From positions 1 to 40,180 of the forward strand of contig CAIKKJ010000056.1 in NCBI GenBank assembly GCA_903827955.1: a stretch of DNA of 40,180 nt, read 5' to 3'. Positions 743 through 28,056 of this stretch are shown here, one piece after another. The notes under the pieces were generated by a model. That model did no database searches, was not told the origin of the DNA, and saw only the letters and a program-made list of their open reading frames with translations. This DNA is from an uncultured Verrucomicrobia subdivision 3 bacterium (lineage in GTDB: Bacteria > Verrucomicrobiota > Verrucomicrobiia > Limisphaerales > UBA11358). Position numbers and translations under genes: made by a program. Position 1 is the stretch's first letter. The number at the start of each line of letters is the position of its first letter.

Positions 743-897
743 ATCCGTCTTGAGGTTCCGCCAGATGAGCTTGCCATTTACGCGCAGGCGAGCTTAGTAT
801 TGCCCTGATGGAACATAGCGGATCAGGTTTGCATATCAGGTTTTTGCCACACCCTGCCGGGTTTGGCGGCAGACTTTTGTGGAATATCGCGCTTCAT
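743..897 (-). pseudogene. Integrase 5' remnant (copy 1), decayed
   Basis: Read on the minus strand, this encodes a broken N-terminus of a tyrosine recombinase like the one at 2389-2733. From the ATG at 897 it reads into WQKPDMQ, then a frameshift, then LIRYVPSGQY, an in-frame TAA at 794-796, and ARLRVNGKLIW with NLKTD. The other copy reads NLIRYVPSGTYYARLRVKG at the same place. The start context CATGCAA followed by a GTATA element is also shared by both copies. The frameshift and stop make it non-functional, and nothing of the catalytic domain remains. It sits just before a truncated tRNA-Arg copy, as the second remnant sits before the intact tRNA. Confidence 0.82.
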
Positions 898-966
898 GCA
901 AACTGTATAGAAATGCAGTATAGAAAACGCAGATCATGTTTTCTAAATGCTACTTTATATTGATTC

Positions 967-1014
967 TATTGTGTCGCGCTCGTAGCTCAGTTGGATAGAG
1001 CACCTGCCTTCTAA
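967..1014 (+). repeat. Truncated tRNA-Arg(TCT) copy: promoter-proximal bases and 5' half (att-like)
   Basis: These 48 bases are identical to 2791-2838, which is the 9 bases before tRNA-Arg plus its acceptor strand, D arm, anticodon 5' stem and whole anticodon loop. Identity stops after the loop: here it continues with ATCAAA, whereas the intact gene continues with the GCAGG stem strand. A break exactly at the anticodon loop is what a tyrosine recombinase crossover at a tRNA leaves. It is best read as the 5' half displaced by a later insertion at the same site. It cannot make a tRNA. Confidence 0.85.
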
Positions 1015-1127
1015 ATCAAAACGGACTTTTTCACAAATCATCACACCTCTTCCACTATTGATTTCATTGACGATTATCATCAGGCGTTATCCCGAAAAAT
1101 CCAATGTTGCCGGTAAAAATCGCAAGT

Positions 1128-1214
1128 AGTATACAAAAAAACGCGGGATAGAGCACCTGCTATGCGTTTAGATGCCTGATCCTTCCAGATGGTTTTGTAT
1201 ACTTTTGTATACTG
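1128..1214. repeat. Cluster of AGTATACAAAA boxes, direct and inverted
   Basis: AGTATACAAAA occurs at 1128-1138. Its inverse occurs twice side by side at 1193-1214, as TTTTGTATAC followed by TTTTGTATACTG. The 13-mer CTTTTGTATACTG (1202-1214) is the exact reverse complement of 2739-2751, just upstream of the second integrase remnant's start. The copy-1 integrase remnant has the related GTATAGAAA twice just upstream (905-928). Position next to integrase starts and att-like sequence suggests recombinase arm sites or integrase promoter control sites. That role is inference. Confidence 0.5.
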
Positions 1215-1321
1215 CTTTGGAGGAAAAATTCCCAGTTCGCGTTCACGTGTTTGTCATCTTGCTTGCTAAAATGGAGGCCAAGCCAGTTGCCAATCACGAG
1301 AACGCTCGCCCCATGCAAGAC

Positions 1322-1397
1322 TGGTAGTGTCAAATTTGCAACCAGCACCGCGCCCATGTGACCCATCGCGGAACTGGTTTCAAACCTGACACAACCA
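1322..1397. repeat. Imperfect 24-bp inverted repeat pair (MITE or IS-end like)
   Basis: Bases 1322-1345 and 1374-1397 are inverted copies matching at 20 of 24 positions, separated by 28 bases. Both carry a GTGTCA core and end in CCAG or its complement. There is no U-run after it, so it does not look like a terminator. It could be a very small non-autonomous element or the fused ends of a lost insertion sequence. Confidence 0.45.
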
Positions 1398-1552
1398 GGG
1401 ATAATCACGCGCGAAAGGAGATCGCAGATTCATGAAGATTTTTTTGGCCGCGTTTTGAAGTTAAAAACACGCGCAGCCTATCCTCATATTAGGCCACATC
1501 ATCAATACGCTCATCTCTTCGGAACTGCTCCGTCGTCTGCTGGACACTTGCC

Positions 1553-2392
1553 GTGCGCGAGTGGTGGCGTATTGCTCGATACTCTGCACTGGGCTGGGTG
1601 GAATTGACGATTGATGGCCGCAAGGTTGGCGATGCAGTGTTGTCCCCGGAGTTTTCTGATCTGAACCGGCGCGTGCTCTACATCTCGCACGATGTCACGT
1701 CGCTGTTCTCCAAAGGTGTTCACACGTTCGATGCGGTCTTAGGCAATGGACAGCACAGTCCCGTGGAGCACATCGGCGCGGACGAAGCTGACAACATAGT
1801 TGTGTCGGGTGGCAAGGGCGCCGGGTATCACAATCGCTGGGGACGTTTCGGCGGTCCGAAGTTTCTGCTGGAACTCGAAGTCGAATACGCCGACGGCACG
1901 CGCGAGTTTTTCGGCACAGATGAAACGTGGCGGTGGTCGGACGGTCCGATTACTTTCAACGACCTCTGGCGCGGCGAGAAACAGGATTTGCGTATCACGC
2001 CGACGAATTGGAATCCCGTCGCCTTGTTTCCTGCTCCGCCGGGGCGAATGGAAGTCTCGTCGATTCCGCCCGTTCGTAAACCGCTCGCGACATTGACGGA
2101 GGCAAATCAGCGCGTGAAATCCGGTGACACGGTGTTCATTCGCGGTGGCAAATACGCGTTGCCTGCGAAACAAACCATCGGCGTCGAACTCAGCCAGAGC
2201 GGCGAGGCGGGAAAGCCGATTCAGTTCTTTGCTTACACCAACGAGACGCCGGTGCTCGACGGTTCGGCGCTGGCGGGGCGGGGGCGCATTGTGGGATTGC
2301 TCATCTCGGGCGATTGGATTCATGTGCGGGGCTTGGAGGTGTGCAATGTTCCGTCGCGCGGCACGAGTTACGGCATCTGGATCAAGGGCGCG
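1553..2392 (+). pseudogene. Chimeric fragment: rhamnosidase N-terminal piece joined to a beta-helix lyase piece
   Basis: One open frame of about 280 codons holds two unrelated gene pieces. Residues 1-170 look like the N-terminal part of a GH78-type alpha-L-rhamnosidase (GWVELTIDGRKVGDAVLSPE, then a beta-sandwich continuing to a SIPPVR motif). From about residue 172 the frame becomes the start of a right-handed beta-helix polysaccharide lyase (KSGDTVFIRGGKYALP, then PVLDGSA, WIHVRGLEV, YGIWIKGA). It lacks a rhamnosidase signal peptide and both catalytic domains. The 3' end runs into the integrase remnant on the opposite strand near 2390, with a GCGC microhomology. I read it as recombination debris within the tRNA-Arg scar. 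An expressed fusion is possible but unlikely, since neither half has an active site. Confidence 0.7.
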
Positions 2393-2733
2393 ATGCGTTG
2401 GTCGTGGTAATCCTTGGTGCGCGGTTTGAGTGAGACGTCGCTAGCAACCCGCTTTTTGTGAATGGCGATGGCATCGGCCATGTTCATCCGTCCAGCCGAT
2501 ACAGAATTGCGGGCTTCGGCTCCTTGGCGTTCCGCCTTCTCGAAATCCGAGAGGCGCAGCTTGGCTACCGAAAGAGTGTCGGTTTTAAGGCTGCGACGGA
2601 TGAGCTTGCCCTTAACGCGTAATCTTGCATAGTAAGTGCCAGATGGAACGTAGCGAATTAAGTTTGAATACTGGGTTTTCTGCCAATCTTTTTCAGATTC
2701 GGCGGGCTCTGGGACTGTTTGCGTCTGAATCAT
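2389..2733 (-). pseudogene. Integrase 5' remnant (copy 2), C-terminally truncated
   Basis: About 115 codons of a tyrosine recombinase N-terminus. It has a DNA-binding SAM-like start (NLIRYVPSGTYYARLRVKG) and a core-binding region reaching KPRTKDYHDQRIA, after which the sequence becomes lyase debris. The arm-binding region is present, but the whole catalytic domain (R, H-x-x-R, Y) is gone. I prefer the ATG at 2733 over one five codons upstream, because the context matches that of remnant 1. The 5' end faces the intact tRNA-Arg 67 bases away, so the element lay on the 5' side of the tRNA. Confidence 0.82.
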
Positions 2734-2799
2734 GCAATCAGTATACAAAAGTCAATTTGGAGTGCTTAAATATTCAGAATCCATTGTATTTATTGTGTC

Positions 2800-2876
2800 G
2801 CGCTCGTAGCTCAGTTGGATAGAGCACCTGCCTTCTAAGCAGGTTGTCGCGCGTTCGATTCGCGCCGGGCGCACCA
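2800..2876 (+). tRNA. tRNA-Arg (anticodon TCT)
   Basis: Full cloverleaf: acceptor GCGCTCG/CGGGCGC (with one G-U), D stem GCTC/GAGC, anticodon stem CCTGC/GCAGG around loop CTTCTAA, T stem GCGCG/CGCGC with loop TTCGATT, and encoded CCA at 2874-2876. The 5' half is duplicated at 976-1014. If the integration reading is right, the 5' half and the upstream bases of this gene were supplied by an integrated element, while the 3' half is the original chromosomal one. Confidence 0.96.
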
Positions 2877-3024: not shown

Positions 3025-3990
3025 TTACGCCGCTTTTTTTCCGTTTTTAACCCGCAGTGCTTGCAACGCTTGCTTGAAATCTTTCGGCAGCGGGGCCTCA
3101 AATTTCACAAGCTTCTCCGTGCGTGGATGGAGGAAGGAAAGTTTGTGCGCGTGCAGCAACACGCGGGGCGCGGCGTAGCCGGTGAGTTCGGCGAATTTTT
3201 TATTTTGTTTTGCGCCGTAGGTCTCATCGCCCAGCAGCGGATGGCCGAGGTGCAGGAGATGCACGCGGATTTGGTGCGTCCGTCCGGTGTGTATCTCGGC
3301 CTCGACGTGCGCGGCGTGATGCAGCTTTTCCAAAACCCGCCAGCTGGTGTGCGCGGCGCGGCCATTATCGTCATCGTGGACGGCCATGCGTTTGCGGTGC
3401 GTGGGATGGCGTGCGATGGCGGCGTGAATCTCGCCGGCGTCGCGCGCGGGCAAACCGATGACGAGCGCATCGTAAAACTTTTTCACGGTGCGCTCGGCGA
3501 ATTGTTTGGAGAGCGCGAGGTGCGTCTCGTCGTTTTTCGCCACGACGAGGCAGCCGCTGGTTTCTTTGTCGAGGCGATGCACGATACCGGGTCGCGCCAC
3601 GCCGCCGATGCCGCTCAACGAGCCTTTGCAGTGATGCAGCAGCGCGTTGACGAGCGTGTGTTCCTCGTGGCCAGCGGCGGGATGCACAACGAGGCCGGCG
3701 GGTTTGTTGACGACGAGCAGCGATTTGTCTTCGAACAAAATTTCCAATGGAATTTGCTCCGGCAGCGCCAGGGCGGACTTGGGTTCAGGGAAAAAGATTT
3801 CAATCGTTTCGCCGGCGCGCGGTGCGTGCGTGGGCTTGACGGTTTTGCCGTTGATGCGGATGTGGCCTTGTTCGATGAGGCGCTGCATGGTGCCGCGCGA
3901 GGTGGCGGGAAATTTTTCGCGGAGAAAGGTGTCGAGCCGCACGTCGGGGCGCGATTGCTCGACGGTGAATTGTTCGGTGCGCGTGGACAT
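3025..3990 (-). CDS. rluD: RluD/RluC-family 23S rRNA pseudouridine synthase
   Basis: A 321-residue protein with an N-terminal S4 RNA-binding domain (about 17-65, VRLDTFLREKFPATSRG) and a RluA-type pseudouridine synthase domain (about 88-310). The catalytic motif HRLDKETSGCLVVAKND places the catalytic Asp at 141. The later GRTHQIRVHL and GHPLLGDETYG motifs are also present. Family members isomerise uridines in helix 69 and neighbouring sites of 23S rRNA. It starts 5 bases after the lspA stop, the common lspA-rluD pairing, so the two are co-transcribed. RluD is preferred over RluC on overall pattern and context, but the exact target uridines cannot be read from sequence. Confidence 0.92.
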   Translation of the reverse strand: MSTRTEQFTVEQSRPDVRLDTFLREKFPATSRGTMQRLIEQGHIRINGKTVKPTHAPRAGETIEIFFPEPKSALALPEQIPLEILFEDKSLLVVNKPAGLVVHPAAGHEEHTLVNALLHHCKGSLSGIGGVARPGIVHRLDKETSGCLVVAKNDETHLALSKQFAERTVKKFYDALVIGLPARDAGEIHAAIARHPTHRKRMAVHDDDNGRAAHTSWRVLEKLHHAAHVEAEIHTGRTHQIRVHLLHLGHPLLGDETYGAKQNKKFAELTGYAAPRVLLHAHKLSFLHPRTEKLVKFEAPLPKDFKQALQALRVKNGKKAA

Positions 3991-3995
3991 TCGGT

Positions 3996-4541
3996 TCAGT
4001 TTACTGCCTGCGGCACGGAATCATTCTTCCAGTTGATCAAGAAAATAATCGCCACGCCGGTGCAGATGGCGGAGTCGGCGACGTTGAACGCGGGAAAATC
4101 CCAAATCTCCGTCGTGCCCCGCCGCGCCATGTAGAAATGCAAAAAGTCCACGACGGCGTGGCGAGCGGGTAGCAGGCGGTCGGTTAGATTGCCGATAATG
4201 CCGCCGAAGATGAGGCCGAACGCGAGCTGGCCGAGGATGCGGTGCGCGCTGAAATGCCGCCGCGAAACCCACAGCACGACGAGCGCGATGATGGCGATGG
4301 CGGCAAGCAAAAAATTGTTCCCGGTGAACAGGCTCCACGCTGCGCCGGTGTTGGCGCGGTGGGTAAGGTTGAAAAAACCGGGGATGACATTGATTTCATC
4401 GCCGGGGAAAATTTTAATGAGCACCAACCACTTGGTGAACTGGTCGAGCGCAAAGATGAACACCGCCAGCGCCAAGATGCGGCGGCTGGGCTTGGACAAA
4501 ATGGAATCGGCAGCAGACACATCGTCAGTTTCAAGTTTCAA
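3996..4541 (-). CDS. lspA: Lipoprotein signal peptidase (signal peptidase II)
   Basis: Inner-membrane aspartyl protease that removes signal peptides from lipidated prolipoproteins. Four hydrophobic segments are visible. Family motifs are NLTHRANTGAAWS (58-70), GIIGNLTDR (114-122), VVDFLHF (130-136) and FPAFNVADSAI (149-159), giving a catalytic pair of Asp132 and Asp156. The start is uncertain: the longest frame begins with TTG inside a heptamer repeat at 4527-4559. GTG or TTG codons slightly downstream (residues 8 and 15) would still leave all four helices. It leads a two-gene unit with rluD. Confidence 0.92.
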   Translation of the reverse strand: MKLETDDVSAADSILSKPSRRILALAVFIFALDQFTKWLVLIKIFPGDEINVIPGFFNLTHRANTGAAWSLFTGNNFLLAAIAIIALVVLWVSRRHFSAHRILGQLAFGLIFGGIIGNLTDRLLPARHAVVDFLHFYMARRGTTEIWDFPAFNVADSAICTGVAIIFLINWKNDSVPQAVN

Positions 4542-15801: not shown

Positions 15802-15849
15802 ATGGAGCCAGCGAGTGGGATTGAACCACCGACCTACGGTTTACGAAAC
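15802..15849. repeat. Left attachment repeat (tRNA-Thr 3' half remnant)
   Basis: These 48 bases are identical to 29581-29628. They cover the 3' CCA end, T arm, variable loop and anticodon loop of tRNA-Thr, read on the minus strand. Identity stops at the 5' anticodon stem. There is no 5' half here, so it is not a gene. Confidence 0.95.
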
Positions 15850-16054
15850 TGATTTTTATAATCTGCTAATAGTGCGCCTATTTCACATCGCCAAAACAAA
15901 GTATATGAATCGCCTTTGTTTACCGCACTGGAGTAATTTTAATTTCATTAGCCACGCTGAATTGATTTCAGGTCAATTTTTTATACGACCCGCCAGAATT
16001 ATTATATCGCCCCCTCGGCTGGCAGAACGTGACGGAAGATTATAGAAAGCCCCC
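15850..16054. other. Left end of the island, noncoding
   Basis: AT-rich, about 205 bases between the left attachment repeat and the serine recombinase stop. No gene is visible. It may contain recombinase binding sites. Confidence 0.4.
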
Positions 16055-16651
16055 TCAGTTATTTTGCAACTTCGTAATTTTGCACACACTGCTAATTGGC
16101 AAATTCAATTCCCGACTGATTTCACGGAGCTTCATGCCCTGACCCCGAAGTGCCAGCACTTCGTCACGGTGCTTGTGAAGTGTGGCAGGACGGCCAAGGC
16201 GAACACCACGAGCACGAGCAGCATTCAAACCGGCATTCACACGGTCTTTAATTAAATTTCGCTCAAATTCACAGACTGCTTTGAGCACGTCTAGTTGAAG
16301 CTTGGAAGCTGGATTGTTGCCGGTGGTGTCTATGCCCTGCGAGGTGCAAATCAAAGGAACACCAAGGTTGCTCATTTCGTCCACGAGCAAGCACAGGTGC
16401 GTCAGGCTACGGCCAATGCGGTCTAGCTTGTAGGCCACGACTCGCTCCACCTTGCCGCTGCGCATTTCCTTCACCATGCGGTCTAGGGCAGGGCGTGAAG
16501 CTTTGCCACCCGAAACCTTGTCGGTATAGACCTCACAGTTCGTCCAGCCACGCATCTGGCAGTATCTTTCGACTTCAAGAAGCTGGCTGTCGGTGGTTTG
16601 CTTACCAGAAGCGAGTGAAATGCGAAGGTAGAGAGCCGTGATTTTTTCCAT
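16055..16651 (-). CDS. Serine recombinase (resolvase/invertase family)
   Basis: A 198-residue small serine recombinase. The catalytic domain (about 4-140) has the YLRIS motif with nucleophile Ser12, and conserved Arg residues in YKLDRIGRSLTHL. A long helix with EFERNLIKDRVNAGL follows, then a C-terminal helix-turn-helix (about 160-195, HRDEVLALRGQGMKLREISR) for site binding. Such enzymes resolve or invert DNA between paired sites. No obvious target pair was found. It reads leftward near the left end of the island, apart from the tyrosine integrase. Confidence 0.9.
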   Translation of the reverse strand: MEKITALYLRISLASGKQTTDSQLLEVERYCQMRGWTNCEVYTDKVSGGKASRPALDRMVKEMRSGKVERVVAYKLDRIGRSLTHLCLLVDEMSNLGVPLICTSQGIDTTGNNPASKLQLDVLKAVCEFERNLIKDRVNAGLNAARARGVRLGRPATLHKHRDEVLALRGQGMKLREISRELNLPISSVCKITKLQNN

Positions 16652-16787
16652 AAATCAAATGTATCTTAAAATCCCGGAAAAGCGAGAATAACCCAGGAAA
16701 TACAAGGGTTTTATGAGGGTCAAAAGGGGGAGGATTTAGAAAACCCTGTTTCTGCTGACTCCACGTCTAATGGAGTGATTCACCAAG

Positions 16788-17006
16788 CTATTTTTCGGCT
16801 CTATACACCAGCGGTGTTCCCTCAGACTCCAACCGATATACGCAAGCGGCTGAATATGCGACTTCATCTCCGGTTGGCGCTTCCAGCTTACATTGCAAAC
16901 GCTTAGGGTGTGGCTTGTCCACCCAAAGTATTTGTCCGTCCAAAATACCGCCTTCAAATTTGGCCTGTATTCCACACACTTCTGTTTTTTGCTTGGAGTA
17001 ACTCAT
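16788..17006 (-). CDS. Small protein downstream of hsdR, unknown
   Basis: A 72-residue soluble protein (KFEGGILDGQILWVDKPHPK, then a CKLEAP strand and AAYSAACVYRLE-like end). It follows hsdR by 25 bases on the same strand and may be the last gene of the restriction operon. Coding is plausible from its balanced, protein-like composition, but no family is recognised and no clear ribosome-binding site is seen. Confidence 0.45.
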   Translation of the reverse strand: MSYSKQKTEVCGIQAKFEGGILDGQILWVDKPHPKRLQCKLEAPTGDEVAYSAACVYRLESEGTPLVYRAEK

Positions 17007-17031
17007 GTTTTATTAGTTTTGGTTTTTAAGT

Positions 17032-20000
17032 TTAATTATTCATCCCGCTGTAAACACCTTCGCCGCTCTGCGGATAGCTCTCGTAAATGTGCTCGAAAAT
17101 AACGGCACACTTTTGTTCGTAAAGCTCCGGTGAATACGCCCGTGGCAATCCAACATCCAGCACGTCTTTGATGGTGTCACGAACCTTGGCCTGTGATGAC
17201 TGACGCTTGCGCCAATCCAGCACGAGCAATCCCTTGAGCTTCGTGAGCAGTTGCTTGGCGACTTTTTTTATTTCGGCACGTTCTTCCGTCGTCAGTTCTG
17301 GGGCTGGTCTGGTTAAGATGTCCAGAATTACCAACTCCTCTTCCGACAGATGTTCACGCACATGGCGACTTTCTTCCTGACTCAGCTCCCGCAGGAAATC
17401 CAACAAGTCATCAATGTTCTTACCGCCGGAATTATATTCCTCAATCAACTCCTCGAATTTTTTCCCAAGGTCAGTGCGAGTGCGGTTCAAGCTAATCAGT
17501 CGTTCCAACTGCGCTCGTATCGCTGCCTTCAACACTTCGAGGTCAGTGTTCTGGTGCTTGGCTTTCTTCAATCGCTTGGCCAATGCTTCAAAATCTATCT
17601 GCGACAAATCAATCTTGGCTGTGGTCTTGTCATGGATGGCCACGCCTTCAACCGCATCGTCCAACACCTTGTTGATGCTGCCCATGACTACCGAGATGTC
17701 CACGGGGTTGGGATTTATCTTGGTGCGAATGGCATCGCCAATCGTCGTCAGGCAAGCCACCACGCCGTAAAATTCCAACGATGCAGGGTCAGGTTTAACG
17801 GCACGGTAAAGCGTGTTCACCAATCGCTCGTGACCAAAGAAATCCCGCCGCATCTGGTCAGGCGCAATCAACGCATCCACGGCATCACCCACAAGCTGCA
17901 ATCGCTCCATGCCAACAGGTGACTTTTCGATGTCTGCCAACACTACGTCACGATTCGCACAGAACGCCGTCGCATCCTTCACGGCTTTGCGCAAATCAGC
18001 AATCAGCTTCGCCTTGTCTTTGACGGGATTGCCTCCATCACCACCTTTGCCGTAAATCGCCAATGCTTTTTCGAGCGATGCGAACACGTTGGCATAATCC
18101 ACAATCATGCCGCTGTGCTTGCCGGGGTAAACTCGGTTCGCACGGGCGATGGTCTGCATCAGCGTGTGGTTGCGCATCGGCTTGTCCAGATAGACCGTGC
18201 TGCAACTCGGTGCATCGAATCCCGTCAGCCACATGGCGCACACGAACACGATGCGAAGATTATCCTTCGGGTCTTTGAACTTCTCGTCCAACGGCGGTTG
18301 CGAATCGTTAATCCGCTTGCGGTGAGGAACGATGTCCAGCCCCAGCTTGGCCATCTGCTCAATCTCGTTCTGACTGGATGACACGATCAACGCCATGTCC
18401 GTGGTGTTAATGACGTTCAACCGATCCAGCAATTCATTCTCGGTGGACTTGGGCATGGCAGGGCCACGCAATGCAGTTTGCACCCGCTGTTTTTCCAAAT
18501 CCAAATACTTCCGAACCTTGTCGTGCATCCGCAGTGCCGTCGCCTTATCAATGCTCACTACCATTGCCTTGCCTTGAAATCCACGTCCAAGGAAATGACG
18601 CACGATGTCTTTGGCAACCGTCTCCAAACGGTCATCACGAGTGAGGATGTGATACTGCTTACCCAACTCACGTTCCAACTTGGCTTCTTGGTCTTCATCC
18701 AAACCCGCTGCATCAATCACATCATAGATGTCATCGTTTAGGTCAGGATTCACCAATTGCAATTCGGGTGTGCGGTTCTCGTAGAACAACGGCACGGTGG
18801 CACCGTCTTCCACGGACTGCTGAAAGTCATACACGCTGACGTAATCACCAAAAACTTCCTTGGTGCGCTCTTCACCCGCAATCAACGGTGTGCCGGTGAA
18901 GGCAAGGAACAAGGCTCTGGGCAAAGCAGACCGCATGTTCACAGCCATCGTGTCATACTGACTGCGATGAGCTTCATCCGTCAGCACAATCACGTCGCTC
19001 TGGTCACACAACACTTCCGGCGTTTGAAATTTATGGATGAGCGTGAAGACGTAGCGATGATTGCCCCGCAGCAAATCCCGCAGATGAGCACCGCTTTCGG
19101 CGTGATTGTCCACGTCGTCTTTACACGCACCAACGGCGGCGAAGGTCTTGGCAATCTGCTCATCCAGTTCCACCCGATCCGTCACCACCACAAATTTCCA
19201 ATCACCCACGAGTTTGCGCAGAACTTTTTGCGCAAAGAACACCATCGAAAAACTTTTGCCGCTGCCTTGCGTTTGCCAGAACACACCGCCACGACCATGA
19301 CCCATCTGCCGTGCCTTGAGCATGGAAGCAATGGCATTGTTCACGCCCAGGAACTGATGGTTCTGTCCGATGATTTTTATCAACCCTGCCTTGTGCTCGG
19401 AGAACAACGTGAAGTTTTCCACCAAGTCCAACAATCGGTTTTTATCGCAAGTGCCACGCAGAATTACGTCCAGCGAAACCCGCCGTGGCTCGTTCTCATG
19501 TTCAATGCGCTTCCATTCAAAGAACCGTTCCCAATCGGCGGTGAGTGAACCCACCCGACTATCTGTGCCGTTGCTGGCGATGAGCAATGCGTTGTAAACG
19601 AACAGTTGCGGGATGTCTGACTTGTAGCACTTGAGGTTGTCGTCAAAGGCGGAGCGAGCCGGAACACCGGGCTTTTTGAGTTCAATCACCACCAAGGGCA
19701 GACCATTGACGAAGGCCACGAGGTCAGGCCGACGGGTGTATAGTGCGCCGGTGATGCTGAGTTGGCTGACGAGGAGGAAATCATTATTGGCGGGATTTTC
19801 CCAATCCATTACCTGTAAACGTTCGGTTTTTTGACCACCGTTGATTTTATCCGGCACCGACACTTTGATGCCGTCCTTGAGGTGCTGATAAATCTGACTG
19901 TTAGCCGACACCAGACTCATTGCACCACGGTCACGGGTCAATTCATCCACGGCGGCATCAATGGCATCGGTTGGCAGCGATGGATTTAATTTTACCAACG

Positions 20001-20172
20001 CAGACCGAAGACGACTCACTAACACGACTTCGCCGCTGGACTCACGACCCAACGTGCCGGATGCGCCGAAGATTTCTTCCGAAGCCACCACAGTTTGCCA
20101 ACCAAGTTCAGCAAACAGCTTGATAGCCGGTTGCTCAACCAGTTGGTCTTCGGTGAAGGCGTGGCTGCTCAT
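17032..20172 (-). CDS. hsdR: Type I restriction enzyme R subunit
   Basis: A 1046-residue translocating restriction subunit. The N-terminal nuclease has the RPD...VIELKK pattern (Asp150, Glu164, Lys166). The helicase motor has Walker A QTQGSGKS (300-307), a DEAH box at 399-402 with FTGTP after it, and QTIARANRVYPGK late in the second motor domain. A helical C-terminus follows and should dock on HsdM/HsdS. It cuts unmethylated DNA after ATP-driven translocation and needs HsdM and HsdS. It begins 6 bases after the nuclease gene that separates it from hsdS, in one transcript. It is full-length, with no disruption seen. Confidence 0.95.
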   Translation of the reverse strand: MSSHAFTEDQLVEQPAIKLFAELGWQTVVASEEIFGASGTLGRESSGEVVLVSRLRSALVKLNPSLPTDAIDAAVDELTRDRGAMSLVSANSQIYQHLKDGIKVSVPDKINGGQKTERLQVMDWENPANNDFLLVSQLSITGALYTRRPDLVAFVNGLPLVVIELKKPGVPARSAFDDNLKCYKSDIPQLFVYNALLIASNGTDSRVGSLTADWERFFEWKRIEHENEPRRVSLDVILRGTCDKNRLLDLVENFTLFSEHKAGLIKIIGQNHQFLGVNNAIASMLKARQMGHGRGGVFWQTQGSGKSFSMVFFAQKVLRKLVGDWKFVVVTDRVELDEQIAKTFAAVGACKDDVDNHAESGAHLRDLLRGNHRYVFTLIHKFQTPEVLCDQSDVIVLTDEAHRSQYDTMAVNMRSALPRALFLAFTGTPLIAGEERTKEVFGDYVSVYDFQQSVEDGATVPLFYENRTPELQLVNPDLNDDIYDVIDAAGLDEDQEAKLERELGKQYHILTRDDRLETVAKDIVRHFLGRGFQGKAMVVSIDKATALRMHDKVRKYLDLEKQRVQTALRGPAMPKSTENELLDRLNVINTTDMALIVSSSQNEIEQMAKLGLDIVPHRKRINDSQPPLDEKFKDPKDNLRIVFVCAMWLTGFDAPSCSTVYLDKPMRNHTLMQTIARANRVYPGKHSGMIVDYANVFASLEKALAIYGKGGDGGNPVKDKAKLIADLRKAVKDATAFCANRDVVLADIEKSPVGMERLQLVGDAVDALIAPDQMRRDFFGHERLVNTLYRAVKPDPASLEFYGVVACLTTIGDAIRTKINPNPVDISVVMGSINKVLDDAVEGVAIHDKTTAKIDLSQIDFEALAKRLKKAKHQNTDLEVLKAAIRAQLERLISLNRTRTDLGKKFEELIEEYNSGGKNIDDLLDFLRELSQEESRHVREHLSEEELVILDILTRPAPELTTEERAEIKKVAKQLLTKLKGLLVLDWRKRQSSQAKVRDTIKDVLDVGLPRAYSPELYEQKCAVIFEHIYESYPQSGEGVYSGMNN

Positions 20173-20178
20173 AACGGT

Positions 20179-21201
20179 TTAGTTTGTCCACTGCTTCCAC
20201 TTCCTGAGAACTTTTTTTGTCGCATTAGCCAAAACAACATCATTGTGTGAATCGGCAATTTTAACTTCGTGGATTACTTTCAATGCTGTGGAGTTGCGGT
20301 ATGCCATGATATTCCACTTTCCATCATCATCCACGAACAAACCGACTCCCACACCTTTGGTTTTGCCATGTGTTTTCCGAAAGTGAATATAGGAATTAAT
20401 CCCAATCCAACGATAGTATTTTGATTTGTCTTTGCCTTCTTCCCACCAATGCCCAAGCTGCGGACTGAACCGATAATTTTTTTTAGCAACTTTGGCGATT
20501 TGCTTGTTGGATCGGCTCTCTTCAAATATCGCTTCCATCATCCGCACCCAATCTGCCGCCGTCTGGAAAATATCTGACTGCATAGAAAACCATCCGAATT
20601 TAGTCTTCTCAGGGTAGCGAAGCCGATGCAGAGCTTTTGCAAGGGCGTTCATCGCCGATTTTGAAATTCTTGTTGGCACATGCATATTGGCGTTCTCCAG
20701 ATAGTTGATGAAATTTTGAGCGATGAACTTGTCTATGGCCGATAGTTTTTTGGGCGATTTCACTAGCTCAAACAGAGCCAAGTAGTAGTCACGCCAATGC
20801 AGAATTTCCCATTCGCCATACGCTCGGTCATGGGGGAAATAATTTTTGACGAGTGCGATTTTCTTGGCGGATTTCAAGTCCCGGTCAGAACTGTAATTCT
20901 TCAACTGGTTGGGATGCAGCGGAGCATCCACCTTGTTTTCAACGATGGCAGCAATGCGACCACCGTTGTAAATCGCCAAGTCCAATCGTCCAACGGTTGA
21001 AATCTGCGTCCTTGCGGTGCATTTGGATGGCACGATCTTTTTGCTGACGCCCAAGAACGTGAGGAAAATTTTGCGAAATGCAATGGACTGATTGAAGCAA
21101 GCGGCAGTGATCTGCGTCAGCCGATCCTCGGTGTAGGAACGATAATCGCCTTCCAGCATTTGCACGAACAATCCATCGTTGTGTTCTGCTGAATGGCTCA
21201 T
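20179..21201 (-). CDS. Predicted PD-(D/E)XK nuclease inside the type I RM operon
   Basis: A 340-residue protein placed between hsdS (3 bases upstream) and hsdR (6 bases downstream). Residues 71-103 carry a PD-(D/E)XK nuclease core of the PDDEXK_4 type: GRLDLAIYNG supplies Asp74, AIVENKVDAP supplies Glu88 and Lys90, and Gln99 follows in LHPNQLKNY. The C-terminal two thirds (about 150-340) is helical then beta-rich (WWEEGKDKSKYYRWIGI, GVGVGLFVDDDGKWNIM) and is not recognised. It has no methyltransferase or helicase motifs and is not a standard RM subunit. It could be an accessory effector that acts when the RM system fails, or an independent defence gene carried in the operon. That is inference from context. 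Confidence 0.8.
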   Translation of the reverse strand: MSHSAEHNDGLFVQMLEGDYRSYTEDRLTQITAACFNQSIAFRKIFLTFLGVSKKIVPSKCTARTQISTVGRLDLAIYNGGRIAAIVENKVDAPLHPNQLKNYSSDRDLKSAKKIALVKNYFPHDRAYGEWEILHWRDYYLALFELVKSPKKLSAIDKFIAQNFINYLENANMHVPTRISKSAMNALAKALHRLRYPEKTKFGWFSMQSDIFQTAADWVRMMEAIFEESRSNKQIAKVAKKNYRFSPQLGHWWEEGKDKSKYYRWIGINSYIHFRKTHGKTKGVGVGLFVDDDGKWNIMAYRNSTALKVIHEVKIADSHNDVVLANATKKVLRKWKQWTN

Positions 21202-21204
21202 GGT

Positions 21205-22392
21205 TCAGTTCACGTTGATTTGTCCTGACATCAACCGTGGCAATAGCAGGTCACGGGTCTTGCGGAGGTTTTCGATAGTTCGTTCAAGCTTCAAAATTTG
21301 ATGCGATAGCGGAGCAGCAAAATCACCAAATTTCTGACACACATCAGCCGTTGGGACGATAAAAGTTTTGGATGCAAATTCTGGCCAATGTCCTTTGTAA
21401 TCATTGAAAACTACCAACCCATTGGTTGCCCAATACAGCCAATAAATGTTTCGATGAACTTGTGGATTTGGAACGAAAGGCAGCACGTTTTGGATAGCTG
21501 AAAATGGAAAATGAATTAGCCGTTGGTAGCAGGTATGATTTGCAAATACGATTATTGGATTATCCTCGCTTGCCACAACGCCCGGTTCGTCATCGTGATA
21601 ACCTATGATTCCACTTTTGCCTTGGTCAAAAACTGGCACAGCCCCGTTTGGGCTAACGGTTTTCGTGTCATATTTTTTACCAAGCGGAATTCGTTCCACC
21701 ATTTCTTCGACCGTTTTGACATCCCATCCCTTCGGAATTTTCCCCAACGGTGAATCCACCATTGGCGTCTTGGCGTGATTGGGATAACGAAAGTTCACGA
21801 ACCACTCACGGTAAAGATTGCGAGCCATCCGCTCCAAAATCTTAATGCGCCGCTGGCAGTTCTCAATCAACTCGTCGTATGCCGACAGGATGCCAGCAAT
21901 GCGCTGTTGAACGGGAAGCGGAGGTTGGAGAACTTCAAAATCTTCAATGGTCGTTTTGGTTAGTGCCTCCCTTGTAGCGCCACCCTGAGCAAGTGTTAGT
22001 AGTCGGGTTTTGAATTGGACGCTGTTGATACAGTTCAAAACAAAACGTGCATCCGCCATGTTTGGATGAACCCTTATTATAGCAACGTGCTGATTTACTC
22101 GTGCGGGTTGAAACTTTAACGGAGCTAAACAACAACGAGCCACAGATGCGCCAGTGATATTCAGCAGGATGTCATCCTTTTGAACAATGACATTTTCCAA
22201 TTCCGCCGCTTGCTCATCATCAATGAATGCTAAGTCATCCTCCATGAAGCTGAAGTCATATACATTCATGCTCCGAATCAGCGGAATGCCCGAATTTTTG
22301 TATGCGTTTTTTCCACCCCTAGGAGTTGCGCCACTGCCGATTTTGGAGGTGATTTCCTTGAGCCGCTTTAATGGGAAATTTGAATTGCCCAT
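21205..22392 (-). CDS. hsdS: Type I restriction enzyme specificity subunit
   Basis: A 395-residue HsdS with two target-recognition domains (about 1-155 and 210-355). They are divided by a conserved helical spacer (PLPVQQRIAGILSAYDELIE at about 157-177, continuing to REWFVNFRYP) and closed by a second helix (IENLRKTRDLLLPRLMSGQI). It sets the bipartite DNA sequence that HsdM methylates. Each half recognises one part, but the sequence cannot be read from the protein. It starts 2 bases after the hsdM stop, and the next gene starts 3 bases after its own stop. Confidence 0.93.
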   Translation of the reverse strand: MGNSNFPLKRLKEITSKIGSGATPRGGKNAYKNSGIPLIRSMNVYDFSFMEDDLAFIDDEQAAELENVIVQKDDILLNITGASVARCCLAPLKFQPARVNQHVAIIRVHPNMADARFVLNCINSVQFKTRLLTLAQGGATREALTKTTIEDFEVLQPPLPVQQRIAGILSAYDELIENCQRRIKILERMARNLYREWFVNFRYPNHAKTPMVDSPLGKIPKGWDVKTVEEMVERIPLGKKYDTKTVSPNGAVPVFDQGKSGIIGYHDDEPGVVASEDNPIIVFANHTCYQRLIHFPFSAIQNVLPFVPNPQVHRNIYWLYWATNGLVVFNDYKGHWPEFASKTFIVPTADVCQKFGDFAAPLSHQILKLERTIENLRKTRDLLLPRLMSGQINVN

Positions 22393-22394
22393 GG

Positions 22395-24014
22395 CTACGC
22401 CTCCAAAATCTCCGCCACGTTTGCCGCAATGGTTTTCTCCAACTTGCGAGCTGCGGTATTCAGCGTTTCAAGTTCTTCGTTCAATGTTTCCAACTGCTCC
22501 TTGAAATCTTCGTCGCTGACTTCTTCACCTGCCGCCACCCCAACGTAACGGCCAGGATTGAGTGACCATCCTTGCGCTTCAATTTCCGCAAGCGTGGCCA
22601 CCTTGCAGAATCCCGCCACGTCCGCATATTTCGCCTTGGCTCCAAAAATTTCCTTCACCTTGGCCTTGGCTTCGTCGCCACCCAACGTGAAATCCAATTC
22701 TTCGCCCCGATACAACTGCACCACGTTGGCAATGAATCCAACCTGTGCCGATGTCCACTCCCGATGAGCACGGTCAACTTGGCGGTAGATGTGCCGTGCA
22801 TCAATGAATAGCACACTGTCAGCCCTTGGTGTCTTTGTCTTGCCCTTGTCGAAGAACCAAAGGGTGACAGGGAGCGTGACGGTGTAGAACATGTTTGGCC
22901 CCACGGCCACCATCACGTCCACGGCCTTGGCTTCAACCAACTTCTTGCGCAGTTCCATCTCGCTACTGCGAGCATCGGACGCAGAGTTGGCCATGACGAA
23001 TCCTGCACGACCTTTGGGATTGAGCGACGAATAAAAAAGTTGAATCCACAGGTAGTTGCCGTTGTCCGTGGATGGCAACCCAAACGGATAGCGACGACCT
23101 GCACCAACCGATTCTTTCAGCCGGTCTTTGTCCACGGCATTGACGTTGAACGGTGGATTCGCCAGAACGAAGTCAAACTTGCCCGTGGCTTCATGCGGGT
23201 CATCGTAATAGCTGTTGGTCTGACCACCGTGCTTGATGTCGCCTTCCAATCCATGCACGGCCAAGTTCATCCGGCACAAACGACCTGTCTCATCGGTCTT
23301 CTCCACGCCAAACACACTGAGTTCCGATGATGGATTCTTTTTATGCTCGCTCACGAACCGAGCGGATTGCACGAACATGCCGCCTGAACCACACGCAGGG
23401 TCAAGAATGCGACCATGAAACGGTTCAATCACTTCGGTCAGCAACCGCACGATGCTGGATGGCGTGTAAAATTCACCACCGCCTTGGCCTTCGGTCATGG
23501 CGAACTCGCCAAGAAAATATTCGTAGATACGGCCAAAGGCGTCGTAGTCCAGTGTGGCGGGAATCTCTGACACCATTTTCAACAGTCCCTTGAGCAGTGT
23601 GCTCGTGAAGATGTTGTAGGTCTTGGGCAGCACACCGGAGAGCTGCGAGTTATTGCTTTCAATGTTTCGCATCGCCTCGTTGACCTTGGCACCGATGTCC
23701 GATGCTTCGGGCAAACTGAGCAGATAATCAAACCGGCTGGTGGCTGGCAGGAACAGAACGCCTTCGGCCTGATATGCGCTTGGGTCATCCACCCGTGAAC
23801 CACGACGTGATGAGGCACTGGTTTTGTCCAGCTTGGCACGTTGGGCAGCAAACCGCACTTCGGCGAACCGCAGGAAGATAAGGCCAAGGACGGGTTGGGA
23901 ATATTGCGCAGCACTGAGGCTGGAATTGGCACGGAATTGGTCAGCGGCATCCCATAGCCGTTTTTCCAGTGTATCTGTTCCGGCATCTTTTCCCGTTGGA
24001 GCGACCCATTGCAT
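22395..24014 (-). CDS. hsdM: Type I RM N6-adenine DNA methyltransferase (M subunit)
   Basis: A 539-residue HsdM that adds a methyl group from S-adenosylmethionine to adenine N6 at the HsdS-defined site. An N-terminal helical HsdM_N domain ([20 protein letters not shown]) is followed by the methylase domain. AdoMet-binding [10 protein letters not shown] is at 205-214 and catalytic NPPFN at 286-290. A coiled C-terminal end contacts HsdS. The ATG at 24014 is the first good start, because the frame upstream has stops. It leads the operon hsdM-hsdS-nuclease-hsdR, and a terminator at 24199 separates it from upstream minus-strand genes. Confidence 0.95.
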
Positions 24015-24198
24015 ACGTGCCGGGCATGGTAGGGAGGAAGATGTTTAGCAGCAAAGGTAAATGTTCACAAAACCCTTGCACGGCGAGGAATGCCACTTCC
24101 GGGCGATGATTGGCCTCAAAAGCGGTGCTGACAGCCAAAATCGTCTCTGAACGCCTTAAACAAATGCCAATTTCGTCGTCAAATCACTACATGTGCAG

Positions 24199-24234
24199 CA
24201 AAAACGCCACACCAGTTTGAGGCTGGTGCGGCGT
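24199..24234 (-). terminator. Rho-independent terminator upstream of hsdM
   Basis: On the minus strand, a 12-bp stem (24234-24223 with 24215-24204, one G-U) with a seven-base loop and a following U-run. It ends transcription arriving from the small genes at 24.25-24.62 kb, so hsdM needs its own promoter in the 185 bases downstream. None is clear to me. Confidence 0.82.
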
Positions 24235-24251
24235 GAATGGGGAAATCTGCG

Positions 24252-24440
24252 TTATAGCTGCTTGATGCGGAAGAATAGTTGGTTCCAGTCAGCCACATCC
24301 CAATAGTTCGTCGTGCGCCAACTGTTCGTCGTGGCCGTGAAGACACCACCGCTATTCGTCCAGTTGAGCAGGTCGCCAGACACTTGAACTTGGTAGTTCG
24401 TGCCAGCATGAAGATTGATGGCTGCGACGATGTTTAGCCC
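24252..24440 (-). pseudogene. C-terminal fragment of a secreted verrucomicrobial-type protein
   Basis: About 60 codons in a frame with no start codon of its own (AAINLHAGTNYQVQVSGDLL, then NWTNSGG, WDVADWNQLFFRIKQL). This looks like the closing module of large secreted proteins of this group, which typically end in a YQVQVS-DL-NW strand pair and an F(Y/F)R tail. It follows the 62-codon gene at a shifted frame. I read it as a fragment left after rearrangement. A frameshift fusing it to the upstream small gene is possible, but no slippery site is apparent. Confidence 0.55.
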
Positions 24441-24622
24441 TTCACAAACCGCATCAGTTGGTTCCCGTTCACCGTCTGATTGCGGCTTACATCTGTGGTC
24501 TTGCCGTTCCGATACGTCGCTAGAGTTTTGCCGGTCTTGAAATCGGTGAGGTAGGTCTGTGTGCCGGTAGTCTTCACCGTGGCCAACATCTTTCCTCGTG
24601 AATTTCGTATGTAGTCTGCCAT
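24434..24622 (-). CDS. 62-residue basic protein with YIRNSRGK-type repeats
   Basis: A short protein opening MADYIRNSRGKMLATVKTTG, then TYLTDFKTGKTLATYRNG and a QLMRFVKG end. Strand-turn units around G-K or N-G-K turns repeat about every 15-18 residues, a pattern seen in small phage- or island-encoded proteins that report a residue sequence such as YDxxGRxLG. Its function is not known. It lies upstream of the fragment and terminator on the same strand. Confidence 0.5.
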   Translation of the reverse strand: MADYIRNSRGKMLATVKTTGTQTYLTDFKTGKTLATYRNGKTTDVSRNQTVNGNQLMRFVKG

Positions 24623-24899
24623 TGGTTTTCAAAGTCCTGTTCTGTTCGCCTCACCTACACTTTTCGGTAGGAAAGTGGAAAAGTTTTTTTCGCAATATTT
24701 TCACACCTCACCGTTTTCTGCGCCTTAGTCCGTGTAAATCCTTACATGACAAGACGAATTATTTACAAATTGGTGCTGTTTGGTTTTAAGCTGATGGAAT
24801 CTGGTTGGTTGGAATTAGCTGAACAGCTCTTCCATCTCTGGCACATGATGCATTGATGCCAAACTCGAAGTCAATCACACGCCAGGCTTAATGCGGTTT

Positions 24900-25166
24900 T
24901 CAATTTGAAATCGTTACATGTGGTTCTTCGCCCACAATCACGACGCCACCAAGTGCATCGGCAAATTCTTGCAGCTCACCCAACCGTTTTCGAGATAGTC
25001 GCTTTGCCTTGGTCACAAATTTGGCGGGGTCATCGAGCAGGATGTTGATGTGCTGCTCATACGTCGGAGCCTTCATCGCTTGCATGAATTGCAACAGAGT
25101 GGCGAGTGTGACCTTTAAGACTTTAGGCTTCCGTTGTTTAGCTGATTTTGAAATTCGTTTCGTCAT
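24900..25166 (-). CDS. Small basic protein, second gene of an unknown pair
   Basis: An 88-residue protein with a Lys/Arg-rich start (TKRISKSAKQRKPKVLK), a helix (ATLLQFMQAMKAPTYEQHIN), a second helix (SRKRLGELQEFADAL) and a closing strand (GGVVIVGEEPHVTISN). I chose the ATG at 25166 because a GAGGAA ribosome-binding sequence lies 3 bases before it. It starts 7 bases after the stop of the upstream gene, so the two form one transcript. The basic start suggests nucleic acid binding. The family is unknown to me. Confidence 0.68.
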   Translation of the reverse strand: MTKRISKSAKQRKPKVLKVTLATLLQFMQAMKAPTYEQHINILLDDPAKFVTKAKRLSRKRLGELQEFADALGGVVIVGEEPHVTISN

Positions 25167-25173
25167 AGGTTCC

Positions 25174-25647
25174 TCACAAAGAAAACAAAACCACGCTCTC
25201 ACCACCGTCCAAATTCAAATCACCCGTCACACGGCGACAGTCATAAATTTTGAATTTCACACTCGCTAGTTCACTGACTGCATTGGCAATGCGGTGAAGT
25301 TCGTCTTCGTTGAATTGACGACGTTTCAAGCGGTGGAGACTCAACTTGGCACGTCTCACCACGAGGAACGTCAGGAACGATATGGGGCTTGCGAACCTGA
25401 ATTGGAACATCACGGGTAAGTCTGACGGAACAACGTGCGTGTAAAACTGGTTGTAAACCTTGCCACAGTTGGCGCAACTCGCACACGTCACGGCGTCATC
25501 AAGGTTGTCCTGAATTGAGTCCTGCCAGTGAGGGTGCTTGTGGGTTAGGTCTTTGCCGGAAGCGATGTCATCAAACACGGTCAAAATTCTGCGAACACAT
25601 GGTTCGGTTTCTGCCGTCAAAAGGGAATTATCTTTGTGCGTTTTCAT
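25174..25647 (-). CDS. Protein with Cys cluster and DnaB-like stretch, unknown
   Basis: A 157-residue protein. A Cys-rich segment CASCANCGKVY (about 53-64) looks like a zinc or metal site. Further on, SLHRLKRRQFNEDELHRIAN followed by AVSELASVKFKIYDCR resembles, by eye, the segment of DnaB-type helicases that follows Walker A and reads HRLRRGxLxxxDWxRLxxA then PIYIDD. No Walker A is present, so it cannot be an active helicase and may only share that sub-fold. The ATG at 25647 is preferred over a GTG nine codons upstream. It leads a two-gene unit preceded by a shared upstream motif. Confidence 0.62.
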   Translation of the reverse strand: MKTHKDNSLLTAETEPCVRRILTVFDDIASGKDLTHKHPHWQDSIQDNLDDAVTCASCANCGKVYNQFYTHVVPSDLPVMFQFRFASPISFLTFLVVRRAKLSLHRLKRRQFNEDELHRIANAVSELASVKFKIYDCRRVTGDLNLDGGESVVLFSL

Positions 25648-25673
25648 CTCCAATAAATAGAAATTCCAAAACA

Positions 25674-25696
25674 CAAACGATTGATTCCGATTAATT
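25674..25696. promoter_or_regulatory. Bipartite upstream motif, copy 1 (CAAACGA-N6-CCGATTAATT)
   Basis: Seventeen fixed bases in a 23-base frame, CAAACGA then six variable bases then CCGATTAATT. It lies about 27 bases upstream of the unit starting at 25647 and recurs at 27806-27828 upstream of the gene at 27728, with the same orientation relative to the gene. Candidate binding site for a common regulator, or a shared promoter element. The role is inferred. Confidence 0.5.
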
Positions 25697-26115
25697 TTAA
25701 TCTACGAATTTTATTTGAAGAGAGAAGCTAAGATTTAATTCCAGAAAATCTTGGCGGTAGAGTTTCTTTGTCCTTCGATAATTGATTCGTCTGGTTTTGA
25801 TTTGGGCAGATGAAACCTTCTCAAATCATTCATCAAGTGACCCTAGCAGTGAGTTTCTATGTGGGTTTATTTCTATTGCTGCTATTCAGTGTTTCAATGT
25901 CCTTCGTCTTGGTATGACTTGGTGCATCTGGTGGTGATTTCACTCGTCAGGCTACTTAACCACATCGGCGTTGATAGTTGCTCCGACCTTGCATACCTAC
26001 TGCAAGTGAACCTAAGCCAACATCACCGATTAACCAAAAGGTCTTGGTTTATCCTCCATGCCAATACGAGCACATGGATTCGACTTCAATACATATCGCC
26101 GTGCCAACAGAGAAT
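25697..26115. other. Noncoding stretch between two small operons
   Basis: No convincing gene in either strand. Open frames here are short, lack start sites or ribosome-binding sequences and have implausible composition. The stretch repeats GATTAATTTTAAT at 25689-25701 (edge of the previous motif) and 26134-26146 (in the end of the next gene). Confidence 0.4.
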
Positions 26116-26526
26116 TCAGAAAAACTGCATTGGGATTAATTTTAATTTGCAGCAACGGTAGGTGTGCATCACGTTGCTGACTCTTTTGCCTTCGTAAACA
26201 CGAACGGGGTCAGGGATAAACAAGATATGTCGCTCTCCATCAATTTTGGGGGTGATGTCCTTCAACTGACCGTCCGGTGAAATCCAAACAGCGTGGAATT
26301 CACCTTCAACGTAACGTTGTCGGCACTCCCAAATTGTCCAGCCATGTTGAATGGCACCACCATCCATTTTGATTTTCTGCTGAACATTGGGAAAGCAGTG
26401 GTTTGGCAAGAATGATTCTGTGTCGGTCACGGGCACATACACAGGTTTGGCGGTTAAGCCGAGTTTGCGCCTCAAGCCTAAGACATTTCGATTTACCCTA
26501 CGGGGAGTTGTTGAAACGAGTTTCAT
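26116..26526 (-). CDS. NADAR-partner protein of unknown function
   Basis: A 136-residue protein whose ATG overlaps the stop of the NADAR gene by one base, so they are translationally coupled. The middle resembles a family I have seen in islands and phages: NVQQKIKMDGGAIQHGWTIW, then EFHAVWISPDGQLKDITPK with many conserved Trp/Gly positions. No catalytic set is recognised. The N-terminus is basic. The coupling suggests it works with the NADAR protein. Confidence 0.65.
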   Translation of the reverse strand: MKLVSTTPRRVNRNVLGLRRKLGLTAKPVYVPVTDTESFLPNHCFPNVQQKIKMDGGAIQHGWTIWECRQRYVEGEFHAVWISPDGQLKDITPKIDGERHILFIPDPVRVYEGKRVSNVMHTYRCCKLKLIPMQFF

Positions 26527-27011
26527 CAGTTCAACCCCCCATCACGAAGTTCCATCCATAGCGACCCAAGCAAATTCTCCCCAACCCACACCCCATCCAC
26601 CAACTTCATACCCCAAGGGTCTGATTTTCTAGGCCGGTTCGACACATCCTCCACCAAGGTTTTACCCAAGGTAGCCTTCAACCCCTCACCAACCTTGCGG
26701 TGGGTTTTCAACTTCAACCCAAGGCACAACCGCATATTATTCAAATCCACCGCACTGCACGGCTCCACGACCCGTTCAGCCTTGCACCGTTTGCTAATCA
26801 TCTTCGCCGCCATTGGGGAGCATTGTTTCCAAATCTCGTTACGCACAGGGGAACCAGCCGGAAAGCGTAGAGCCTGAAAAAGAGCCTCAGTCGTGCGCCA
26901 CCACACCCCATCAAATTGAACGGGAAATGGAGCCATATTGCCCAACCACCCAAAGGGCAAGGCAACCTTCGTGAAGGGTATCACCGTCGAATTATCCATA
27001 ATGTTCATCAT
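26526..27011 (-). CDS. NADAR (YbiA-like) domain protein, predicted ADP-ribosyl/N-glycosidase
   Basis: A 161-residue NADAR-family protein. Matching positions are LGNMAPFPVQFDG (23-35), the TTEALFQALRF helix (40-50, family usually has S-E-H), the LVEDVSNRP region (119-127), DPWGM (131-135) and the closing GENLLGSLWMELR. Some family members have been reported to remove ADP-ribose from nucleic acid bases or to cut N-glycosidic bonds of nucleotide metabolites, acting in the cytosol. Here the function is inferred. It has its own sigma70-type promoter at 27139-27166, with about 120 bases of leader. No ADP-ribosyltransferase toxin is visible nearby. Confidence 0.82.
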   Translation of the reverse strand: MMNIMDNSTVIPFTKVALPFGWLGNMAPFPVQFDGVWWRTTEALFQALRFPAGSPVRNEIWKQCSPMAAKMISKRCKAERVVEPCSAVDLNNMRLCLGLKLKTHRKVGEGLKATLGKTLVEDVSNRPRKSDPWGMKLVDGVWVGENLLGSLWMELRDGGLN

Positions 27012-27138
27012 AAAATCTCAGTTTTAGGGCATGGATTTCCTCACAAGGGCACAATGCACCTGTGTTTATAGCGGGGGAAATTAAAGTCCTAGCAGAGGAG
27101 TCAGCAGTTCAACACGCCAATTCATCTAGCATGACACA

Positions 27139-27166
27139 ATTATATAGATAAAAAACAAAAAGTCAA
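27139..27166 (-). promoter_or_regulatory. Sigma70-type promoter of the NADAR unit
   Basis: On the minus strand: -35 TTGACT (27166-27161), 16-base spacer, -10 TATAAT (27144-27139). It is close to consensus and points toward the NADAR gene, whose ATG is about 120 bases downstream. Confidence 0.75.
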
Positions 27167-27728: not shown

Positions 27729-27805
27729 AATAATTCTTTCGTTTGAGGCGAGCGTGATTGCCGCCAATAATAAATATCTGACTTCGAGAAAATTTGACCA
27801 ACAAT

Positions 27806-28033: not shown

Positions 28034-28056
28034 TTGCCCAAATGCCTGGAATAACC

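Follow-up and report, generated by a model that had tools for sequence, protein, structure and literature searches.

Evidence for successive integrations of tyrosine-integrase elements on the 5′ side of a tRNA-Arg(TCT) gene in an uncultured Verrucomicrobia subdivision 3 bacterium

A stretch of 40,180 nucleotides from an uncultured Verrucomicrobia subdivision 3 bacterium (hereafter the window; contig C56 of an assembly of 3.86 Mb) carries near its start an intact tRNA-Arg(TCT) gene, a detached copy of the 5′ half of that gene, and two remnants of tyrosine integrase genes, which together are the subject of this analysis. At the start of the window are the 3′ end of a 23S rRNA gene and a 5S rRNA gene. 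The intact tRNA gene lies at 2800–2876 on the plus strand (ARAGORN; Rfam RF00005, 69.5 bits), with its anticodon at nt 35–37. The orphan half, at 976–1014 on the same strand, is identical in 39 of 39 positions to nt 1–39 of this gene (2800–2838), and the match breaks off after the final base of the 7-nt anticodon loop, just as the original prediction had described. With the adjoining upstream bases, the match is perfect over 44 nt (971–1014), and as a 57-column alignment (959–1014) it has 96.5% identity.

One integrase remnant is found to the left of each tRNA-Arg copy, in both cases with its N-terminus toward the tRNA. The right one is a 126-aa open reading frame (ORF) at 2368–2748 (−), which has lost the C-terminal catalytic part. 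Its segment 2398–2745 (−) shares 61% amino acid identity with aa 2–117 of an intact integrase on another contig of the same genome, C73; the ORF matched the integrase phrog_1 (E 0.0011), and had no Pfam match at 0.001. The left remnant, at 626–850 (−), has 47% amino acid identity to aa 22–94 of the C73 integrase and contains four in-frame stops (3 TGA, 1 TAA). As extrapolated from these alignments, the two genes would have started 52 bp (right) and ~63 bp (left) leftward of the respective tRNA 5′ half. That the two remnants are related and both point their 5′ ends at a tRNA-Arg copy had been predicted, and both indeed match the N-terminal region of the C73 integrase. The predicted extent of the locus, 743–2876, does contain the features, but the left remnant reaches to ~626, left of that start.

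A comparison of the two remnants, proposed along with the original prediction, showed 76% DNA identity over 88 columns, and the repeats that flank them differ. On the left, GTATAGAAA occurs twice in tandem (905–926, copies 905–913 and 918–926), presumably as arm-type sites of an older element; on the right, the 11-mer AGTATACAAAA at 2740–2750 is a presumed arm-type site of a younger one. The latter repeat is found again at 1128–1138, within a segment (1015–1413) that would represent the left end of the younger element. Parts of this segment resemble the left end of an element on C73, with 87% identity at 1031–1091 and 86% at 1229–1413. Because of these matches, window positions 976–2838 were read as a decayed element of the C73 family.

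The C73 element (locus L006) is an intact relative of 7.77 kb with a plan matching that of the window locus. An orphan copy of nt 1–39 of tRNA-Arg(CCT) is found at 3972 and an intact tRNA-Arg(CCT) at 11744, and the 39 nt are identical between the two. From left to right, the element encodes an RCC1-repeat protein, a product that matches PEP-CTERM weakly (below the cut-off), an ORF2/G2P-type HUH Rep (PF23343, E 7e-13), a small protein resembling HTH_17 (below the cut-off), a 281-aa protein without a Pfam or PHROGs match (L006 9673–10518), and a 385-aa integrase (PF00589, E 1.8e-19). The integrase is a single ORF that starts 67 bp from the tRNA. For this integrase family, the best named relatives come from metagenome bins (Verrucomicrobia subdivision 3 and Pedosphaera).

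We consider it very likely that the locus arose when two small elements with a tyrosine integrase inserted one after the other on the 5′ side of tRNA-Arg(TCT), and that both have since decayed. The attachment site of such an element (attP) would consist of the integrase start, the arm-type repeats, promoter-proximal DNA, tRNA nt 1–39, and the left end of the element, in that order. Strand exchange, probably inside the anticodon loop, would join the 5′ half of the element to the 3′ half of the chromosome and restore the gene, while the old 5′ half would end up at the opposite end of the element. The restored gene could then serve a second element as its chromosomal site (attB) in the same way, leaving an older integrase remnant, an older 5′ half, a younger element, and the current tRNA, in this order. 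The half at 976–1014 is thus read as the restored 5′ half of the older element, displaced by the younger one, and nt 1–39 of the current gene would be element-supplied, its 3′ half being chromosomal. The ancestral element was presumably able to excise. Judging by position and base composition, the restored tRNA would be transcribed from element DNA, a takeover of its promoter.

The orientation seen in the window recurs in relatives. Matches to the C73 integrase were obtained in 36 of 40 genomes (own included), and loci were taken from among the matches listed. In 49 of the 51 integrase–tRNA pairs at these loci, the 5′ end of the tRNA pointed toward the integrase start (5′ side); when four contigs that had been fetched twice were left out, 45 of 47 pairs did so. 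Relatives of this kind in other genomes had been proposed as a check of the prediction. The same set held 11 further integrase rows without a tRNA within 500 bp and 5 loci without an N-terminus.

A census independent of the family covered all tRNAs (149) and all PF00589 domains (96) of three genomes, and 45 of these domains lay within 1.3 kb of a tRNA. Among them, 18 of the 19 family-like domains were on the 5′ side, and 24 of the 26 others on the 3′ side (Fisher 2e-9). The family list comprised 34 places picked by hand from the C73 integrase matches, with weak matches to the C-terminus only omitted; when one such 3′-side match (G021:C131) was counted as family, the Fisher value became 3.5e-8, and 3.7e-8 when two domains at a single tRNA (G000:C140) were additionally taken once. 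Ten domains of the census faced the tRNA with their C-terminus, nine on the 3′ and one on the 5′ side. None of them was family-like, and so family relatives with the catalytic end at the tRNA, which the original prediction had named as counter-evidence, were not seen in the census. Some tRNAs had an integrase on each side, among them tRNA-Ser(CGA) on G000:C140 and a tRNA-Ser on G021:C186.

An integrase tree of 81 rows contained 50 rows on the 5′ side, 13 on the 3′ side facing the tRNA with their N-terminus, 5 on the 3′ side facing it with their C-terminus, and 13 of unknown side. In this tree, which was made by a quick method and has long branches flagged, side accounted for 7 changes and target tRNA for 40. 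The five C-facing rows formed one clade. The 50 rows on the 5′ side spanned 18 target isoacceptors, and an intact tRNA adjoined every one of them. Two very similar integrases of genome G021 (L069 and L070, with branches of 0.034 and 0.052) adjoined tRNA-Thr(TGT) and tRNA-Arg(CCT), respectively, perhaps as a result of a recent target switch. One family integrase without an adjoining tRNA (L222/L278, G253:C12) had a tmRNA gene ~650 bp from its start. A search of IMG/VR with six peptide patterns returned no relatives, and matches in phage and plasmid records were all below 60% identity (24–27% among the matches listed).

Displaced 5′ halves were likewise found elsewhere. A scan of 93 tRNAs in 91 loci (some contigs were present twice) detected a same-strand 5′ fragment upstream of 13 tRNAs, belonging to 13 elements with the window included. 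Eleven of these were exact and ran from nt 1 to nt 37–42; the others were inexact, with 3 mismatches in 37 in L089 and two 24-nt pieces in L252. A 3′ fragment was found downstream of two scanned tRNAs, namely the tRNA-Thr(CGT) of the window (47 nt, 13.8 kb away) and the tRNA of L262 (29 nt); the latter was also the only one with such a fragment among eight 3′-side control loci from the phylum, two of which were short or near-duplicate. Opposite-strand matches occurred in L006 (17 nt) and L099 (39 nt). The latter, at L099 14294, is an inverted copy of nt 33–71 of tRNA-Arg(CCT) and sits directly behind a truncated integrase.

The two ends of an element also had repeats in common. Summed over the elements, the longest strings common to both ends of the same element amounted to 147, compared with a mean of 107 when ends were permuted between elements (sd 5.7, p 5e-5), and the element's own left end ranked first in 6 of 13 cases. 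These repeats may be arm-type sites, on both sides of the core, bound by a heterobivalent, lambda-like integrase. The 60 nt upstream of restored tRNAs had a GC content of 0.365 (n=50), compared with 0.549 for tRNA-Arg(TCT) genes taken as unoccupied (n=14, p 7e-7), in a comparison that pools tRNA types and taxa. A motif that stood out on inspection just upstream of restored tRNAs, CATTGATTTNATTGG, was dropped as a candidate, since at up to 4 mismatches it was present in only 6 of the 50 occupied genes and in 1 of the 14 unoccupied ones.

Stacking could be assessed in 15 flanks to the left of displaced halves, from 13 elements, with 13 right flanks as controls. A minus-strand integrase N-terminus was present in 7 of the 15 flanks and in none of the 13 controls; the clear cases were the window, L078, L080, L251, and L252 (inner half), while the match was weak for L254 and L255. 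At the inner half of L252, the N-terminus was 97% identical to the integrase currently found there. In genome G009, contig C67 has an intact outer integrase, then a 5′ half of tRNA-Arg(ACG) and the left end of another element (L041/L276), and the restored tRNA-Arg(ACG), with inner-type repeats, is found on a second contig, C89 (L073). As the tRNA-Arg(ACG) half is identical on both contigs, they probably join as a tandem at this gene. The predicted succession of elements that each bring a 5′ half is therefore supported by relatives on the 5′ side, by the divergence of the remnants, and by independent stacking at other tRNAs.

These flanks also bear on another scenario, in which only one element integrated and the remnant on the left is either debris unrelated to it or a second gene that it carried. 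In favour of this, decay of the left remnant is severe, and one element (L020) does carry a second integrase-like ORF. However, the left remnant starts at the usual place for the family (~63 bp, extrapolated, left of the tRNA half), a tandem repeat lies between its start and the orphan half, and six other displaced halves have an integrase N-terminus leftward of them (weak in two cases) while the controls have none. We therefore regard a single integration as very unlikely. Less probable still is that the orphan half is no relic of an attachment site, but was kept by selection as a functional decoy or a tRNA-derived RNA. Its perfect preservation (39/39) between two broken integrases would fit such a role, as would a further partial tRNA copy ~130 bp on; against this, displaced halves are an expected by-product of integration and were seen in 13 elements, and 2 of these 13 (L089 and L252) have mismatches. 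Least probable is a local tandem duplication of the tRNA–integrase region followed by decay, which would explain why nt 1–39 and similar DNA just upstream are common to both copies, but not why the copy breaks off precisely where the anticodon loop ends, why the orphan half is followed on its right by DNA similar to the left end of an element located elsewhere in the genome, why the halves are 100% identical when the remnants share 76% over 88 columns, or why the repeats at the two copies are unlike and the pattern returns at other tRNAs. In its plain form, duplication was rejected on the element-specific left end, the unlike repeats, and the uneven divergence.

Several observations weigh against two integrations on the 5′ side as the origin of the locus, the pooling of tRNA types and taxa in the GC comparison being one of them. 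No syntenic empty site, which the original prediction had asked to be compared in relatives, was found with any of three flanks. The ORF that follows tRNA-Arg(TCT) (3025–3990, −; presumably RluD-like) was searched in 25 genomes (own included) and matched in 23 of the 24 others, with no match spanning the tRNA; the right flank of the C73 element was searched in 49 genomes (own included), and the left flank of another element in 4. In the window itself, the outer end of the older element and the original 5′ half are missing. Two integrase–tRNA pairs (L094 and L106) are on the 3′ side. At the scale of the phylum, a profile of 26 integrases (E 1e-40 or better) matched 26 of 288 genomes (own included), and 28 loci read from these outside genome G000 comprised 13 on the 5′ side, 10 on the 3′ side facing the tRNA with their N-terminus, and 5 without a tRNA near the integrase. 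In the DNA retrieved, a distal half was not seen at 38 of the 45 distinct 5′-side loci of the first set, among them 16 of the 20 with at least 8 kb leftward, nor at 6 of 12 5′-side loci of the phylum set; contig ends, decay, or longer elements may account for this. In L006, L089, and L253, the longest string common to both ends is unlike a repeat unit. Finally, five loci (L095, L221, L077, L092, and L098) have a tRNA 3′ half without a matching 5′ half, and ARAGORN found no complete tRNA in 18–20 kb around L077, L092, and L098, nor at L221 (L275). Rebuilding of the tRNA is therefore not universal, or the supplied half decays.

Two assemblies complicate individual loci. In genome G015, one contig (L174) holds a 5′ half with an integrase remnant and another (L095) the unrebuilt 3′ half of tRNA-Arg(TCT), which looks like a single gene split across two contigs of an incomplete assembly. 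In L176 (G044:C52), a tRNA-Arg(TCT) that contains NN (4332–4416) and a displaced half ~3 kb away are oppositely oriented, which may reflect a scaffolding error at the repeated half.

Islands that restore the 5′ half of a tRNA are known, and are rare. According to the Islander report (PMC4383910), 3760 islands have a displaced 3′ fragment and 159 a 5′ fragment, out of 3919, in keeping with the statement of the original prediction that placement on the 5′ side is unusual. As described there, the islands with a 5′ fragment resemble the elements presented here in their tyrosine integrase, in the intact tRNA at one end and displaced 5′ fragment at the other, in belonging to an anticodon crossover class, and in forming tandem arrays. 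They are a 4% minority for which the passages on them describe no lineage, whereas here the arrangement is the usual mode of one family near the genus of the window. The features by which tRNA-gene islands are recognized are present: an intact tRNA with a same-strand displaced fragment on the correct side (976 and 2800), and between them a tyrosine integrase, as an N-terminal remnant in the window and intact in C73. The window copy is shorter, at 1.82 kb, than the 2–200 kb range of the Islander length filter.

A review (PMC8371274) states that bacterial tRNA genes retain their original promoter with very few exceptions, that the 5′-restoring situation is seldom seen in bacteria (citing Williams 2002), and that integration separating a tRNA from its promoter is known from archaeal pTN3-like integrases (also PMC5495485). 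As these sources present them, the pTN3 and TKV4 integrases cut the restored tRNA off from its original promoter, as the family described here would, and the identity block in the window (nt 1–39) likewise makes the tRNA 5′ half the att site. They are archaeal, however, and have att within the integrase gene, which is split upon integration; here, att falls outside that gene, which remains intact and in C73 is one ORF of 385 aa. The tRNA-dependent lysogeny of actinobacteriophages, as outlined in PMC10865867, also involves integration at the anticodon region of a tRNA, which is then not rebuilt, the element bringing a tRNA of its own. The tRNA is intact in the window and at most loci of the family, although the five loci mentioned above similarly lack a rebuilt tRNA.

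A classical 3′-restoring island lies further along the window at tRNA-Thr(CGT) (15803–29656), where nt 29–75 are repeated 13.8 kb downstream and the integrase domain (28979–29374, +) has its C-terminus toward the 3′ end of the tRNA. It shares a tyrosine integrase and a displaced tRNA fragment with the family described here, and is the mirror image of its 5′ mode. Integrative mobilizable elements and integrating rolling-circle plasmids are similarly small and combine an integrase with an HUH Rep or relaxase and an HTH_17-like protein; in the present family, the tRNA side is reversed, and 5 of 13 elements encode a conserved protein of 236–286 aa next to the integrase or in its vicinity.

What is new here is a lineage of bacterial integrases that usually employ the 5′ mode, and among the open-licence papers listed, none was found to describe such a lineage. 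Elements that restore the 3′ half leave a tRNA its own promoter, while those that restore the 5′ half take over both promoter and leader. As the lineage shares its genomes with integrases that act on the other side, it allows the preference for the 3′ side to be tested, as well as changes of side or target by an integrase and any control of host tRNA supply by element promoters. Ordered stacks, in turn, provide a relative dating of integrations at one locus. A broader picture can be put forward only tentatively, and we would give it slightly less than even credence: across a large group of Verrucomicrobiota, this lineage may make the 5′ half and upstream control of host tRNAs replaceable, with the newest arrival rebuilding and driving the gene at many isoacceptors and successive arrivals stacking in order. 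With a 3′-type element opposite, a tRNA might then consist of halves from two parasites, and the side of integration would be an inherited trait of the integrase that changes less often than its target.

A number of smaller features were noted within the elements. The left end in the window contains a third short tRNA copy (1146–1160, +), a 15-nt exact match to nt 18–32, and its counterpart in C73 is a 17-nt inverted copy of its own target tRNA (L006 4163–4179). Both lie ~130–150 bp from the junction, and each matches its own target; a third tRNA match was dropped as a general rule, being clear in these two elements only. A ~190-bp segment of the left end (window 1229–1413; L006 about 4205–4395) is predicted to fold strongly in C73 (z −3.07). 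Of the 49 genomes searched (own included), 14 had matches to parts of the C73 left end, chiefly to this segment; the short matching loci of other genomes showed no tRNA, and the left end had no Rfam match at E 0.1. The segment could be a replication origin, an RNA, or a dispersed repeat.

Between the orphan half and the right integrase remnant of the window lies a fragment (1553–2410, +) with a Bac_rhamnosid_N domain (PF08531, E 3.8e-29) and a Pel9A-like beta-helix (PF22842, E 1.8e-6), which would be truncated cargo or a later insert. The 12 elements other than the decayed window copy measure 3.5–9.2 kb, with L252 being a stack of two. Their gene content varies. A small HTH protein is encoded in 5 of the 13 elements, as is a protein of 236–286 aa with a GRPR or GRPK end beside or near the integrase (L006, L252, L253, L254, and L259), which is possibly a recombination or transfer factor. 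An HUH Rep was found in L006, below the cut-off in L259, and by blastp in L254, and a relaxase in L255. Other load includes a C-5 methylase with Vsr in L253 and AbiE-like genes in L080.
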